From contig NZ_VIKR01000007.1 in the NCBI RefSeq assembly GCF_007004765.1, positions 62,001-126,000 of the forward strand: a stretch of DNA of 64,000 bases, written 5' to 3'. This DNA is from Aliikangiella marina (GTDB lineage: Bacteria; Pseudomonadota; Gammaproteobacteria; Enterobacterales; Kangiellaceae). A program made the position numbers and the translations under genes. Below the pieces are notes generated by a model that saw only the letters and a list, made by a program, of their open reading frames with translations, did not search any database and was not told the DNA's origin. Below are positions 13,924 to 19,879 of the stretch, piece after piece. The first letter of the stretch is position 1; every line of letters starts with the position of its first letter.

Positions 13924-14625
13924 ATGATTGAGTTTGCTGAAGTTTCCAAGCGTTATCCTAACGGTCAGGAAGCACTCAAAAAAGTCAGTTTTGAAATCGC
14001 TGACGGTGAAATGGCCTTTTTAACTGGTCACTCTGGTGCCGGTAAAAGTACACTATTAAAGCTCATCTGCTTGATGGAACGCGCAACCTCTGGCCAAGTT
14101 GTGGTCAACAATAAAAATTTAAATCGCACTAGCCGCCGGAAGATCCCTAGTGTTAGACGTAATATTGGAATGATTTTCCAAGATCATCGATTATTATTCG
14201 ACCGTTCGGTTTTTGATAATGTTGCCCTACCACTGATGATCGCAGGGTATCCACACCGCGAAATTGGTCGACGGGTGCGGGCTTCACTCGATAAAGTCGG
14301 TCTGCTCTCCAAAGAAAAGTACTCCCCCATCATGCTGTCTGGTGGTGAGCAACAACGCGTTGGTATCGCAAGGGCTGTTGTTAACAAGCCACCATTATTA
14401 CTCGCCGATGAGCCTACCGGAAACTTAGATCCTGAACTTTCTGCAGAAATTATGCATCTATTTGAGCAATTTAATCAGGTCGGCGTGAGTTTACTCATCG
14501 CTTCGCATGACTTGAGCTTGATCGCTCAAATGCACTACCGGACGCTCGTGATGAAAGAGGGTCGTCTCGTTCAAGACCAAGTTGATACCATCACTTCATC
14601 AGAGGAGGGAAGTGATGAGTCATGA
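13924..14625 (+). CDS. ftsE: Cell division ATP-binding protein FtsE
   Basis: This 233-residue ABC ATPase works with FtsX at the divisome to activate septal murein hydrolases. Walker A (GHSGAGKSTLLK), ABC signature (LSGGEQQRVGIARA), Walker B (LLLADEPTGNLDPE) and the switch His (ASHDLSL) are all intact. Length is normal. The last 11 bases overlap the start of ftsX, implying translational coupling. AGGTAAGCCG precedes the ATG. Confidence 0.97.
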   Translation: MIEFAEVSKRYPNGQEALKKVSFEIADGEMAFLTGHSGAGKSTLLKLICLMERATSGQVVVNNKNLNRTSRRKIPSVRRNIGMIFQDHRLLFDRSVFDNVALPLMIAGYPHREIGRRVRASLDKVGLLSKEKYSPIMLSGGEQQRVGIARAVVNKPPLLLADEPTGNLDPELSAEIMHLFEQFNQVGVSLLIASHDLSLIAQMHYRTLVMKEGRLVQDQVDTITSSEEGSDES

Positions 14626-15589
14626 GCAAATGAGCGGAGCCAGCATGTCACAGGGCGCAACGCTTAGTGCCCGTCTAAAGATGTTGAGTCGTCTCCACAA
14701 GATAGAAGCCAAACGCGGTGTCATCGATATAGTGAGTAATCCGGTTTCCAATTTTATGACTATTTTGGTTATCGCGATTGCACTTGCCTTGCCAACTGGA
14801 CTCCAAATACTGCTAGAAACCGGTAAAACTCTGTCAGAAAGCTGGGATGGTGCGAGTCGCATATCACTCTATCTGCAAAGCGATGTTACGGAAAGCCGAT
14901 TAACCGAAATCGCTGCTAGAGTGAGCGAAACCAGCGGCGTCGACAGTGTAGATACCATTTCTCAAGAACAAGCACTGGAAGATTTTAAGGAGCGCTCTGG
15001 ATTTGCCGAAGCCATTGACCAGCTGGATAGCAACCCTCTGCCGCCGGTTTTAGTGGTTCAACCAAAACCAACCCACACTTCCCCGCAAGCCTCCGAAGAA
15101 TTACTGGCAGAGTTTAATACAATTCGCGAGGTAGAGTTAGCGCAGTTAGATTTAGACTGGGTGCGCAAACTATATGCTTTAATTCAACTGGCAGAAAAAG
15201 CCGCTTCGGCATTGGGTATTGCCTTAGCACTTGCTGTTTTACTTATTGTCGGCAATACCATTCGACTCTCGGTTCAAAATCGGCGTGAAGAAATTGAGGT
15301 GGTTAAACTGGTAGGCGCTACCGACGCTTTTATACGACGCCCCTTCCTTTATACCGGGCTTTGGTACGGCCTATTTGCAGGAGTCACCTGTTGGGTTATT
15401 GTAACCTTCTCGCTTTATTGGCTTAAAGATCCAGTTGCTAACCTCGCTGGCCTTTATCAAAGCCAATTTCAAATCCAAGGCCTGTCGATAGGCCAAAGTC
15501 TGAAGCTTATCGGTATAAGTTGTGGCTTAGGGTTATTGGGTTCCTGGTTAAGTGTTGGACGCCATATCCGTCAAATAGAGCCCCACTAA
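14615..15589 (+). CDS. ftsX: Cell division protein FtsX
   Basis: This 324-residue membrane partner of FtsE starts at the ATG at 14615, which has AGAGGAGG 5-12 bases upstream, inside the ftsE coding end. Topology fits the family: a cytoplasmic N-terminus, TM1 (FMTILVIAIALALPTGLQIL), a periplasmic loop of about 120 residues that recruits the hydrolase activator, then three TMs with the conserved NTIRLSVQNRREEIEVVKLVGATDAFIRRPFLYTG segment between TM2 and TM3. The next gene is rpoH, about 300 bases on. Confidence 0.95.
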   Translation: MSHEQMSGASMSQGATLSARLKMLSRLHKIEAKRGVIDIVSNPVSNFMTILVIAIALALPTGLQILLETGKTLSESWDGASRISLYLQSDVTESRLTEIAARVSETSGVDSVDTISQEQALEDFKERSGFAEAIDQLDSNPLPPVLVVQPKPTHTSPQASEELLAEFNTIREVELAQLDLDWVRKLYALIQLAEKAASALGIALALAVLLIVGNTIRLSVQNRREEIEVVKLVGATDAFIRRPFLYTGLWYGLFAGVTCWVIVTFSLYWLKDPVANLAGLYQSQFQIQGLSIGQSLKLIGISCGLGLLGSWLSVGRHIRQIEPH

Positions 15590-15699
15590 ATTGCCTCAGG
15601 AACCATCGCTTGGACGGCAAAACCGCGGCTATAAAGTTCTCTTTCTGCGATAAGAATGTAGCTGTAACAATTTGTTTCTTAAGGAAACTTTTCCGATTT

Positions 15700-15726
15700 T
15701 TAGCACTCTTATAGTGAAAGTGCTAA
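15700..15726 (+). promoter_or_regulatory. CIRCE operator 1 upstream of rpoH
   Basis: TTAGCACTC-N9-AAGTGCTAA matches the CIRCE consensus TTAGCACTC-N9-GAGTGCTAA at 17 of 18 conserved positions, with the correct 9-base spacer. CIRCE is the operator of the heat-shock repressor HrcA. A TATAGT hexamer in the spacer (15710-15715) could be a -10 element, in which case a bound repressor would cover the promoter; that placement is inference. Confidence 0.88.
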
Positions 15727-15730
15727 AAAA

Positions 15731-15757
15731 TTAGCACTCTTTGTCTGAGAGTGCTAG
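15731..15757 (+). promoter_or_regulatory. CIRCE operator 2 upstream of rpoH
   Basis: TTAGCACTC-N9-GAGTGCTAG matches the CIRCE consensus at 17 of 18 positions. It starts 31 bases after the first copy, about three helical turns, so both could be occupied on one DNA face. It ends 135 bases before the rpoH ATG. Confidence 0.9.
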
Positions 15758-15892
15758 ACTAGTAGTTAATAAGCAGAGCCTCCGCTGTCTTTTACCGACA
15801 AGTCAGAAGCTTCTGCGGTCGAAATTTCAAGTAAATCAACAACTTGTTTCGATAATGCTAGTAAAAGCCCAGAAACAAGAGGAAGAGTCAGA
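15758..15892 (+). other. rpoH 5' untranslated region candidate
   Basis: These 135 bases between the second CIRCE copy and the rpoH start contain no open reading frame of note. In E. coli rpoH translation is held back by mRNA structure over the start region; whether that applies here cannot be judged by eye. AAGAGGAAGAG just before the ATG supplies the ribosome-binding site. Confidence 0.4.
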
Positions 15893-16741
15893 ATGAACAA
15901 TGCATTAGCAACAGTCTCAATGTCAGTACCACAAGGTAACATTGAGTCTTATATTACCGCTATCCACTCGGTACCCGTATTGTCGCCTGAACAAGAATAC
16001 GAGTTGGCTAGCCGTTACAAGAATGATGGTGATTTGGACGCTGTTCGCGAACTTATTCTATCTCACCTACGATTTGTGGCCCATATCGCACGTAGTTACA
16101 ATGGCTATGGCTTGCCACAAGCCGATTTAATTCAAGAAGGTAATGTCGGTCTAATGAAAGCGGTCAAGCGCTTCGATCCGGAAGTCGGTGTTAGATTGAT
16201 TTCATTCGCAGTCCATTGGATCAAGGCTGAAATCCACGAATTCGTCCTTAAAAACTGGCGAATTGTTAAAGTCGCGACCACTAAAGCTCAACGCAAGTTG
16301 TTTTTTAATCTTCGCGGCGCGAAAAAGAGCTTAAATTGGTTAAACAACGACGAAATAAAAGCCGTTGCCGAAGACTTAGGCGTTTCTGAAATTGAAGTTC
16401 GGCGTATGGAAAGTCGCTTAAATTCTCGAGACACAGCGTTTGATTTACCCAATGACGCGGATGATGAAACCAGCTTTGCGCCTGCAGCGTACTTAGAGTC
16501 TGAAAATAGTGACCCTGCAGAAACGCTTGAAAATCAAGACTGGCAAGATCACAACCAACAGCGCTTGATGAATGCGATGCAAGCATTGGATGAACGCAGC
16601 CAAGCCATTCTTGCTGCTCGTTGGCTTAGCGACGACAAAGCAACGTTACAAGAGCTTGCTGATAAATATCAGGTGTCTGCTGAGCGAATTCGCCAGCTTG
16701 AAAAAAATGCGATGAACAAGCTAAAAGCAAGTATGAGCTAA
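15893..16741 (+). CDS. rpoH: RNA polymerase sigma factor RpoH (sigma-32)
   Basis: This 282-residue sigma-70-family factor directs transcription of heat-shock genes. It lacks region 1.1 and has region 2 ([38 protein letters not shown], then [21 protein letters not shown]), the diagnostic RpoH box ([13 protein letters not shown]), region 3 and region 4 with its helix-turn-helix ([29 protein letters not shown]). Length matches E. coli RpoH. It follows ftsX as usual, but two CIRCE operators lie upstream, suggesting HrcA repression in addition to any sigma-32-specific controls. Confidence 0.97.
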
Positions 16742-16823: not shown

Positions 16824-17846
16824 CTACTGCGTTTTTCGATATTGACTTGGACTAATACCGTACCATTGCTTAAATGCTCGACAGAAATTAGCACTTTCGC
16901 TGTAGCCTAATATTTGAGCAATATCTAAAATGCTGTACTTCGGTTGCATCAATAAGCTTTCAGCAAATCGTCGTCGCTCCGCTTCTAAAATTTGTTTATA
17001 GGTCGTATCCAGCTGTTTGAGTTTTCGAATGAGTGTTCTTTCCGAACAAAAAATCATGTTAGATAAAACCGTTTGAGTTGGGGCAGGGAGAGGGGAAGAA
17101 GAGACCAAAGCTTGCTCAAAGTGTTTTCTTATCACTTGTCTTATCCTCAGATCTAAGCGACTATCATGCCCGCGTTCTTCCATAATTTGCTGACATTTCG
17201 CTAAATTAAACTCAAAAGAGTCTCGGTCAAATAAGGGCGAAACGCTAAACCAAATATCTTTCGGTATACACAATTTATTTTGCTGTGTTTTAAAGTAAAG
17301 TAATGAATCAAACGCGTCTTCTAACCAAACTTTTCGACCGCTGTCGCTCATTTCAAAATAAATCGATGTTTTGTTTGTTGGCGCTTGACCCAAAATAAAA
17401 GTCATCAGGATTTCCAGGGCCCTTGCGAAGGCTTCAAAGAAAAAGCCCTTAAAATCATCATCACCAGTGTTATCCTGAATAATCAGCTCAAAACTATCCG
17501 TGGTCTCATTCACTCTTGACGTATAAACATCAGCTCGAATAGGAAACCATTCTAAAAAAGTCGATAACGCCTTACCGACCGAAGGTGCGCTTAATGCCGC
17601 ATAGCCCACAGGACCGTGACTGGCAGCACCAAGGTGCGTGCCGAAAATCGTTGCAAAATTAGGTTCATCACCGTAATTAATGAGGTTTCGGACTAATTGT
17701 ATGGCTTCACCAACTTCAACAAAGCTTGAACCGTCAATATCAGTCAGGTCTATTGCGGTGTTCTTAAAAAGCAATTCGGATGGTGCTAGCTCAAGATTTT
17801 GCGCTATCACTAAGTAAGCTTTATTTATCAGGGGCGTATGTGCCAT
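16824..17846 (-). CDS. AraC-family transcriptional regulator
   Basis: This 340-residue regulator has an N-terminal domain of the AraC-binding-like type (about 1-200), as in regulators of the OruR/ArgR-like group that sense small molecules. A C-terminal double helix-turn-helix follows, with SNMIFCSERTLIRKLKQL and ILDIAQILGYSESANFCRAFKQWYGISPSQYR, the latter being the AraC signature. The ATG at 17846 is preferred to a GTG one codon upstream. It is divergent from the desaturase-reductase gene across 98 bases holding two direct repeats, so it probably controls that gene. The effector is unknown. Confidence 0.9.
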   Translation of the reverse strand: MAHTPLINKAYLVIAQNLELAPSELLFKNTAIDLTDIDGSSFVEVGEAIQLVRNLINYGDEPNFATIFGTHLGAASHGPVGYAALSAPSVGKALSTFLEWFPIRADVYTSRVNETTDSFELIIQDNTGDDDFKGFFFEAFARALEILMTFILGQAPTNKTSIYFEMSDSGRKVWLEDAFDSLLYFKTQQNKLCIPKDIWFSVSPLFDRDSFEFNLAKCQQIMEERGHDSRLDLRIRQVIRKHFEQALVSSSPLPAPTQTVLSNMIFCSERTLIRKLKQLDTTYKQILEAERRRFAESLLMQPKYSILDIAQILGYSESANFCRAFKQWYGISPSQYRKTQ

Positions 17847-17870
17847 CACTCAATCTCTGTACTTAACCGA

Positions 17871-17944: not shown

Positions 17945-19879
17945 ATGAAAACTACGCATACACCAATTAATCCTTACCATTCTCTTTGGCAAAATGCTGT
18001 GCCGGATATCGCCTGGGGCACTGTCGCACTTTTTATCGGATATGTATCAGGTTATACGCTGGTAATCATTGGCATAGTGAGTGGCCACTTACCATACGAG
18101 CTTGCGACTATTTTTTGTGCCTATCTCGCCTACGTTGGGTTCACCATTGCCCATGATGCTGGTCACGGCAGCATCATCGCGTCAGGTTCACGATTTAAAT
18201 TTGTTGAATCCTTACTGGGCTGGATTACTGCAATTCCACTGTTACTTGTACCCTTCCCGCTATTCAAACGAATTCACGATAGACATCACGCTTTTACGAA
18301 CGATCCTGATCGAGACCCAGACCATTTTTCTTTTGGTAACCGCTGGTATCAAGTTCTCTTAAATTGCTTTTATATTCCGATCCAATACCACCATTTAGCG
18401 TTCACTAAGCTTAAAAATATCAAAACTATTCGAGACACTTATCCAACCACATTCATTTATTTCGTTTTGGTTTTAAGTGGTATTGTTGGGTTGATTATTC
18501 ATGGCTATTCTCAGGCGCTGCTTTACGTAATTATCATTCCAAATGCCATTGCTATTTTGGCTCTAGCGCTATTCTTTGATTATATTCCTCACCACCCCCA
18601 TAAATCCTTAGACCGCTACCATGACTCAAGGATCTACCCAAGTAAGATTCTTAATGGGCTTTTGTTGGGTCAAAACTATCACTTGGTACATCACATGTAT
18701 CCAAAAGTCCCTTGGTACCGATATAAAACAGTATACGAACAGATCTTACCGGATTTAGAGCGAAATCAATCGCCAATTGAAGACTTGTCTGGAATCAACA
18801 AGCCCGGTTTCATGAAATCCATTAACGGTAACCGCTTAATCAAAGGTAATAAATTTATGAACATGTTATTACCGGTATCAGATATAAAGCCTTTAACGGA
18901 TGATTCGGTTTTGATTGAGTTTGAGTTACCTCACGAACAATCTCTTGATTTCAATGCAGGGCAATACATCACGCTGAGTAAATGGCTGAACGGAGAACAA
19001 CACACTCGATGCTATTCACTTTGTGTAAGACCACCGGCTAATTTATTGCAAATTGCTGTTCGCAAACAGCAACAAGGCGTGTTTTCTGAATTTCTAAACA
19101 GCCAGTTGGCAATAGGGGACCAACTCATCGTCAAAGGACCTTTCGGTGAATTTAAATACCCACCGGCTCATCGACAGGCAACCGAGCAGCTCACTCTGAT
19201 TGCCGGTGGTAGTGGTATTACGCCTATCATTTCAATTCTAACAGCAGCCCTAACACAATCCGCTAGCGTCAAAATCCATTTGATTTACACATGTCGAAAT
19301 GCTCAACAGATTATGTTTATTGACGATCTCGAAGCGCTTCAAAGCGCTCATTCGGACCGCTTTACCGTCTCACTAATCATTACTGAAAAAGGATTGGGTG
19401 GGAGTCGATTAACTTCAGATAGATTAAATCAACTGATTGATCTTAAAGCAAATAGGGGCTGTCACGATTTTTACATTTGTGGTCCGCAAGGTCTCAATCA
19501 AATAGCCACCAAAGTTTTGATCGATAGAGACGTTGCACCTAAAAACATTCATTTAGAGTCTTTTTCACAACAAGCGGAACAGCCCGTCGGCGACTTACAT
19601 CAAGTCGTAATATGCCTCGATGATGGTCTTAACTGTCAACTTGAAGTGGCGTCCAACCAAACGGTGTTAGGTGTTGCGTTACAATCTGGAGTAGCCATTC
19701 CACATGCTTGCGCGCAAGGCACCTGCGGTGTTTGCAAACTCAAACTAGAATCAGGCTCGCAGGTTCCCATTGCCGATTCATTACCTGGCTTAACCCAACA
19801 GGAAAGATTAGCCGGTTATACGCTAGCTTGCCAATGCAAACCATCAAGCGACTTAGTTTTGAAAGAGTCTAATGAATAA
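17945..19879 (+). CDS. Fatty acid desaturase fused to a ferredoxin-NAD(P)H reductase module
   Basis: This 644-residue fusion has two parts. Residues about 1-300 form a membrane di-iron desaturase/hydroxylase with four hydrophobic segments and three histidine boxes: HDAGHG (about 70), HDRHH (about 111) and HLVHH (about 246). An extra HHPH motif lies near 218. Residues about 305-545 form an FAD/NAD(P)H reductase (RCYSLC flavin motif, GGSGITPIISIL, YICGPQG). Residues about 550-644 form a plant-type 2Fe-2S ferredoxin with CAQGTCGVC (Cys about 589) and a distal C in LACQC. The polypeptide could carry electrons from NAD(P)H to its own active site. Fatty-acyl substrates are most likely, but hydrocarbon or carotenoid hydroxylation is not excluded. 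Confidence 0.88.
   Translation: MKTTHTPINPYHSLWQNAVPDIAWGTVALFIGYVSGYTLVIIGIVSGHLPYELATIFCAYLAYVGFTIAHDAGHGSIIASGSRFKFVESLLGWITAIPLLLVPFPLFKRIHDRHHAFTNDPDRDPDHFSFGNRWYQVLLNCFYIPIQYHHLAFTKLKNIKTIRDTYPTTFIYFVLVLSGIVGLIIHGYSQALLYVIIIPNAIAILALALFFDYIPHHPHKSLDRYHDSRIYPSKILNGLLLGQNYHLVHHMYPKVPWYRYKTVYEQILPDLERNQSPIEDLSGINKPGFMKSINGNRLIKGNKFMNMLLPVSDIKPLTDDSVLIEFELPHEQSLDFNAGQYITLSKWLNGEQHTRCYSLCVRPPANLLQIAVRKQQQGVFSEFLNSQLAIGDQLIVKGPFGEFKYPPAHRQATEQLTLIAGGSGITPIISILTAALTQSASVKIHLIYTCRNAQQIMFIDDLEALQSAHSDRFTVSLIITEKGLGGSRLTSDRLNQLIDLKANRGCHDFYICGPQGLNQIATKVLIDRDVAPKNIHLESFSQQAEQPVGDLHQVVICLDDGLNCQLEVASNQTVLGVALQSGVAIPHACAQGTCGVCKLKLESGSQVPIADSLPGLTQQERLAGYTLACQCKPSSDLVLKESNE

Follow-up and report, generated by a model that had tools for sequence, protein, structure and literature searches.

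The class I heat-shock regulon of Bacillus subtilis is controlled by the repressor HrcA acting at CIRCE operators, with groESL as a target, and the sigma-E-dependent rpoH promoter of E. coli is named P3. A 2003 survey by Permina and Gelfand that covers gammaproteobacteria may already list CIRCE sites at rpoH. In Geobacter sulfurreducens, a delta-proteobacterium, CIRCE was predicted upstream of rpoH in 2004 (Rodionov et al., PMC545781, Table 8; accessible part of the paper). As for HrcA itself, the accessible text of PMC8533110 relates that a titration model was first proposed for B. subtilis and that binding is enhanced by GroE in Campylobacter jejuni, and the accessible text of PMC4577112 lists Salmonella rpoH among genes with sigma-E-dependent promoters. 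A full-text search, which missed most subscription papers, returned no second visible report of a CIRCE–rpoH link: the accessible text on CIRCE and HrcA in PMC3989490 does not report it, HrcA is not mentioned in a proteobacterial regulon paper (PMC5343134) or in PromoterAtlas (PMC13377108), no paper was found on HrcA in Kangiella, and HrcA and rpoH combined with Pseudoalteromonas gave only an unrelated match.

We analyzed a 64-kb stretch of the Aliikangiella marina genome (Kangiellaceae, Gammaproteobacteria), referred to below as the window. Scanned with the CIRCE consensus, the inverted repeat TTAGCACTC-N9-GAGTGCTAA, at up to three mismatches, the window contained two matches only, both of which lie between ftsX and rpoH:

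15700–15726, plus strand: CIRCE operator 1, TTAGCACTC-N9-AAGTGCTAA, 1 mismatch in 18 against the consensus
15731–15757, plus strand: CIRCE operator 2, TTAGCACTC-N9-GAGTGCTAG, 1 mismatch in 18 against the consensus
15893–16741, plus strand: rpoH, heat-shock sigma factor sigma-32, the proposed target gene (TIGR02392, 412 bits, cut-off 323.1)
14582–15589, plus strand: ftsX, the upstream gene, at the end of an ftsY-ftsE-ftsX cluster (TIGR00439, 357 bits)

Each operator has a spacer of exactly 9 bases, and their starts are 31 bp apart; in coordinates and matches this agrees with the preliminary description of this DNA, which had reported two tandem CIRCE elements, each one base off consensus, with the same spacer and offset. 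Shuffled versions of the window averaged 0.01 matches, with none of 100 shuffles reaching two, and no CIRCE at up to three mismatches occurred in first-order Markov versions of rpoH upstream regions (0/9400), controls that rule out a chance match as the origin of the pair. The gap from the end of ftsX (15589) to operator 1 is 110 bases. Service to another gene was also rejected, since ftsX and rpoH are read in the same direction and no open reading frame of at least 80 amino acids separates them, in line with the earlier statement that no other target is available on this strand. Elsewhere in the window, an AraC-type regulator (16824–17849, minus) is divergent from a gene at 17945–19879 (plus) whose product, named by eye, is fatty-acid desaturase-like with a reductase/ferredoxin-like C-terminal part.

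The preliminary description had made its reading depend on an hrcA gene, and the genome (5.3 Mb in 8 contigs) encodes a single full-length copy (TIGR00331, 312.6 bits, cut-off 197.2), which grpE, dnaK and dnaJ, the last assigned by eye, adjoin on the same strand. Genome-wide, five CIRCE-like sites were present at up to three mismatches, against two for a reversed control pattern. The one before groES is perfect, and the others are the rpoH pair and two sites elsewhere with three mismatches. Upstream of hrcA, grpE and dnaK there was none, even at up to six mismatches. Of the usual CIRCE targets that had been named earlier, groESL thus carries its site and dnaK/grpE do not, having sigma-32-type promoters instead; scanned with the pattern CTTGAAA-N11-16-CCCCAT, grpE matched at 12/13 and dnaK at 11/13 consensus positions. 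The sigma-32-type promoter of groES (10/13) has its −35 element in the right arm of CIRCE. No such promoter at 10/13 or better was found before hrcA, dnaJ or rpoH, and sigma-32 autoregulation of rpoH was rejected because none lies between ftsX and rpoH. RpoE is also encoded (TIGR02939, 316.8 bits, cut-off 236.15).

At groESL, CIRCE overlaps the sigma-32 promoter in all 21 loci compared (that of A. marina plus 20 from the family), with the −35 starting at CIRCE +15 and CCCCAT following after N13 in every one (21/21); groES is the gene downstream of this CIRCE in the 20/20 fetched family loci, as in A. marina. The spacer of the groESL CIRCE is itself conserved, mostly as GGGGTT or CCCCTT before GAGTG (L008:7005–7031, L197–L216), which is probably explained by the part of the sigma-32 −35 element that its end contains.

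Compared with the accessible account of G. sulfurreducens, the A. marina arrangement is alike in having a predicted CIRCE before rpoH and groESL also in the HrcA regulon, but in that species one copy is listed and hrcA-grpE-dnaK-dnaJ is also preceded by CIRCE (PMC545781). The same account, as far as its accessible text goes, mentions no sigma-E-type promoter overlapping the site and no gammaproteobacterial pattern across the class (PMC545781). With the class I regulon of B. subtilis the locus shares the operator, the repressor family and the groESL target (see also the accessible part of PMC8533110), whereas in A. marina the predicted target is the gene for the heat-shock sigma factor, and dnaK and hrcA are without CIRCE.

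The nearest named records by RpoH identity were an uncultured Kangiellaceae bacterium (82%) and Pleionea sediminis (69%), and these two share their rpoH upstream sites exactly with G012 and G019 of the same family. Our family sample comprised 37 genomes, three of which were dropped for want of an RpoH match at 1e-80. CIRCE with up to two mismatches was present upstream of rpoH in all of the remaining 34 (34/34), so that the conservation in close relatives on which the earlier reading had also been staked is found throughout. Two copies (up to four mismatches each) occurred in 27 of the 34, at a spacing of 31 bp in 23, 30 bp in three and 33 bp in one; L039 and L040, whose upstream sites repeat L016 and L026, were left out of this count and kept in the count of arm pairs given below. 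One family genome contains a further rpoH-like region interrupted by seven in-frame stop codons (G015:C30:5496–6320, minus), and a perfect CIRCE is still present upstream of it at G015:C30:6454–6480.

Two family genomes, G002 and G013, lack hrcA despite high completeness (98 and 100%, respectively). In both, copy 1 is unrecognizable (six or more mismatches) and copy 2 has two mismatches; this is the only CIRCE genome-wide at up to two mismatches (its placement at rpoH in G013 follows from the count), so groESL is without CIRCE at that cut. Both retain GAAACTT-N16 and a TCTNA-like −10 (sigma-E motif 10/11 and 9/11). In G021, hrcA was not found, yet a perfect CIRCE stands at groESL (L202); an RpoH match is also absent there, and given this the assembly may be incomplete. 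The sites could conceivably be relics of an older operator and without present function, with rpoH depending, like its E. coli counterpart, chiefly on sigma-E, sigma-70 and post-transcriptional control. In that case one would point to G006 (L010), an hrcA-bearing relative in which copy 1 has decayed and copy 2 is perfect, and to the sampled enterobacteria (L108, L110, L117), which do without HrcA. The example of G006 indicates that decay of copy 1 alone needs no loss of hrcA. Against a relic, the 18 bases are near-perfect across families and have decayed in the two hrcA-less family members, which points to continuing selection in hrcA-bearing lineages and makes such an explanation very unlikely indeed.

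Beyond the family, we compared the distributions of hrcA and of CIRCE at rpoH in two sets. The named set consists of the best-scoring 80 rpoH loci and is unevenly sampled, with many Pseudomonas and with completeness not given. CIRCE (up to three mismatches) precedes rpoH in 17 of these 80 loci, including four Pseudoalteromonas, Ketobacter, Haliea, two Halioglobus, two Woeseiaceae and a Chromatiaceae MAG. Sixteen of the 17 genomes have hrcA, as do 0/63 of the others, and the one miss (L099) is a 1.7-Mb MAG; counted the other way, CIRCE is present at rpoH in 16/16 genomes with hrcA vs. 1/64 without. The four Pseudoalteromonas (L056, L070, L074, L098; genomes G066, G068, G071, G073) carry a perfect CIRCE at rpoH, and their HrcA matches have E values of 1e-7 to 1e-11 vs. 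∼1e-60 in other matches; HrcA in these genomes may be fast-evolving or replaced, with the operator unchanged.

An even draw of gammaproteobacterial genomes had hrcA in 277 of 370. For the class set, 80 genomes were taken, one per family (G049, G141–G219), and 500 bp upstream of rpoH were scanned, one region being shortened by a contig end; RpoH was found in 73, and seven genomes without a match at E ≤ 1e-60 were dropped. CIRCE precedes rpoH in 49 of the 53 genomes with hrcA vs. 2 of the 20 without (Fisher p 2e-11, a value that ignores shared ancestry). For both hrcA-less exceptions, G205 and G154, another genome of the same family has hrcA (G408 and G287), and the four hrcA-bearing genomes G202, G164, G174 and G151 have no full CIRCE at rpoH, relaxed scans included. 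One genome (G170) carries two rpoH genes, G170:C289 (L151) and G170:C325 (L129), with CIRCE at only one; the second copy, without CIRCE, was dropped from the counts, and the first has CIRCE. A quickly built phylogeny of 120 RpoH proteins required 11 changes in hrcA and nine in CIRCE, and wherever CIRCE differs the change goes the same way as that in hrcA. The tree gave two independent pairs on well-supported branches, which is underpowered, and 11 on all branches, and this test is consistent with the association but not strong.

Outside the class and within the phylum, 21 of 53 genomes were used, one per family and probably Alphaproteobacteria. Sixteen of the 21 have hrcA, and CIRCE at rpoH was found in 0/34 upstream regions at up to three mismatches, with one at four (L220). 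The proposition that hrcA always brings CIRCE to rpoH is therefore false outside the class, and the absence of the site from rpoH in these hrcA-bearing genomes marks it as a property of a lineage rather than a by-product of hrcA. With the four exceptions in the class, these genomes mean that the link cannot be expected wherever hrcA is present. The preliminary description had placed rpoH under HrcA "in this organism"; the link itself is supported, but given its presence in most hrcA-bearing class families and the G. sulfurreducens prediction it is not peculiar to A. marina.

The distribution of the sites also bears on the idea that the repeats act in the rpoH mRNA, as hairpins formed by each CIRCE or between the copies, in termination, transcript stability or temperature sensing. 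A leader starting at 15716 folds better than its shuffles (z −2.92; 0/200 as good), and a terminator-like stem at 15719–15738 joins the right arm of CIRCE 1 to the left arm of CIRCE 2 around a 4-base loop, a hairpin that could form in any RNA reading through the two copies. When all copies were scanned for changed arm pairs, however, 52 of 85 were broken, 30 were one-sided G-U, one was two-sided G-U and two were two-sided Watson–Crick; because the changes mostly break pairing, a protein operator fits better than an RNA helix. Moreover, the arm letters themselves are conserved and track the presence of hrcA, and two copies at up to three mismatches occur in only 2 of the 51 CIRCE-bearing class genomes (L130, L174). 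We regard a role in the RNA as improbable, and favor operators bound by HrcA.

In the window, both operators overlap candidate promoter elements. The consensus for sigma-E promoters is GGAACTT-N15-17-TCTNA, and TTAGCA was scored against the sigma-70 consensus:

15684–15690, plus strand: GAAACTT, sigma-E-type −35 (6/7 matches to GGAACTT), its start 16 bp ahead of CIRCE 1
15707–15711, plus strand: TCTTA, sigma-E-type −10 (TCTNA), in the end of the CIRCE 1 left arm and the spacer, N16 from the −35
15731–15736, plus strand: TTAGCA, weak sigma-70-type −35 (4 of 6), within operator 2
15752–15760, plus strand: TGCTAGACT, extended −10-like element that shares bases with the operator 2 right arm, its last T (+29) conserved

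The earlier account of the operators, right as far as it went, had missed this overlap. The sigma-E-type promoter GAAACTT-N16-TCTTA matches its consensus at 10/11 positions; the second, putative sigma-70-type promoter (TTAGCA, TAGACT) is weak by consensus in the window, and a simple sigma-70 scan of 15560–15900 found no promoter. At rpoH, then, the inverted repeat, hrcA in the genome, CIRCE at groESL and the overlap with promoter elements, features by which a CIRCE regulon is recognized, are all found at the level of sequence. A. marina resembles enterobacteria in that rpoH would be read from a sigma-E promoter (PMC4577112, accessible part; the A. marina promoter is predicted from sequence only), but its −10 element lies inside a CIRCE operator.

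The overlap recurs across the class. In 64 class and named upstream regions aligned on CIRCE, GGAACTT stands at −16 to −10 (53–60% per position) and T-N-A at spacer positions 9–11, which yields TCTNA with 16 bp spacing. Counted by locus, GGAACTT (at least 5/7) begins at −17 to −15 before CIRCE in 42 of 66 CIRCE-bearing loci (32/51 class, 10/15 named), against a background mean per offset of 0.9 (class) and 0.08 (named) loci, and the sigma-E −35 is missing from this fixed place in 24/66. The full sigma-E motif at 10/11 or better was found in 33/66 CIRCE-bearing upstream regions (shuffles 0.2), with the −10 inside CIRCE in 29 and elsewhere in four; it was also found in 20/86 class and named upstream regions without CIRCE (shuffles 0.15). 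In the CIRCE-bearing loci, the −10 takes its TC from CIRCE, so these two bases are not independent evidence. A T at +29 follows the right arm in 63 of the 66 loci and gives TGCTAAAAT or close variants, an extended −10. Four loci without CIRCE (L166, L058, L042, L120) have sigma-E-like elements, and their −10 region resembles by eye a remnant of the CIRCE left arm, such as TTGGCACTC in L166.

Among the 27 two-copy family members the elements divide between the copies: a sigma-E −35 precedes copy 1 in 20 and copy 2 in none, with seven lacking it at the fixed place, and the T at +29 follows copy 1 in five and copy 2 in all 27. At some loci of genus group g5, which has small genomes and which we take to be perhaps Kangiella, GAAACTT and a TCTTA-like −10 lie by eye further upstream with both operators downstream, where HrcA may act as a roadblock. 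It is possible that there is a single HrcA-controlled promoter and that the extra copy is simply redundant, with no division of labor between the two, as might be expected from the one copy in most CIRCE-bearing gammaproteobacterial families sampled and from the 7/34 Kangiellaceae that do not show two. Against this, promoter elements are distributed reciprocally between copies 1 and 2 in 27 genomes, even though shared history inflates the number of independent events, and we find a merely redundant second copy rather doubtful.

We consider it highly probable that the two sites are HrcA operators built into the promoter region of rpoH, with the regulatory loop that would ensue. Operator 1 would cover the −10 and start region of the sigma-E-type promoter GAAACTT-N16-TCTTA, while operator 2 would cover the sigma-70-type extended −10 and fall within the leader of the transcript begun at the sigma-E promoter. 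At normal temperature, GroE-activated HrcA on both operators would hold rpoH low; once GroE is occupied by misfolded protein, or HrcA is inactivated by heat, HrcA would leave and rpoH would be transcribed, further raised when envelope stress lifts sigma-E. Sigma-32 would then switch on grpE, dnaK and groESL, the last with HrcA also occupying its sigma-32 promoter, and fresh GroE would restore HrcA and close the loop. Acting on the gene for sigma-32 and also on a gene that sigma-32 switches on, HrcA may thus form a coherent feed-forward loop closed through GroE. What we infer for this genome is that HrcA binds and represses at these sites, that the promoters are used, and that GroE acts as reported for HrcA of Bacillus, Chlamydia and Campylobacter. 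The proposal made earlier, that rpoH under HrcA joins two heat-shock systems, is supported by the presence of hrcA, by the sites throughout the family and by the co-distribution.

As to its history, we lean slightly toward a composite of operator and sigma-E promoter that came from the gammaproteobacterial ancestor or arose early in the class, with losses elsewhere and with duplication and division of the promoters in Kangiellaceae. In the ancestral state, a single site would, ahead of sigma-32 synthesis, weigh envelope stress, signaled by sigma-E, against the free chaperonin GroE, signaled by HrcA. Lineages including Enterobacteria and Pseudomonas would later have lost HrcA, with the sigma-E promoter retained in part.

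The interpretation that HrcA controls rpoH finds good support in the genomes compared, and the predicted link is widespread in Gammaproteobacteria keeping hrcA. We claim no priority for the CIRCE–rpoH link, predicted earlier in G. sulfurreducens; relative to the sources compared, what looks new is that it nearly matches hrcA in extent across the class, that CIRCE overlies a sigma-E-type promoter, and that Kangiellaceae have it in a duplicated, divided form. HrcA/CIRCE and sigma-32 are usually described as alternative or parallel strategies, and CIRCE at rpoH suggests that they are wired together. In E. coli, control of sigma-32 is largely post-transcriptional; should HrcA govern rpoH in most hrcA-bearing gammaproteobacterial families, this scheme would be a derived one, reached when a layer of transcriptional repression was lost. 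Because CIRCE overlaps a sigma-E-type promoter, there is also a direct and testable prediction on how one stretch of DNA would integrate cytoplasmic and envelope stress.
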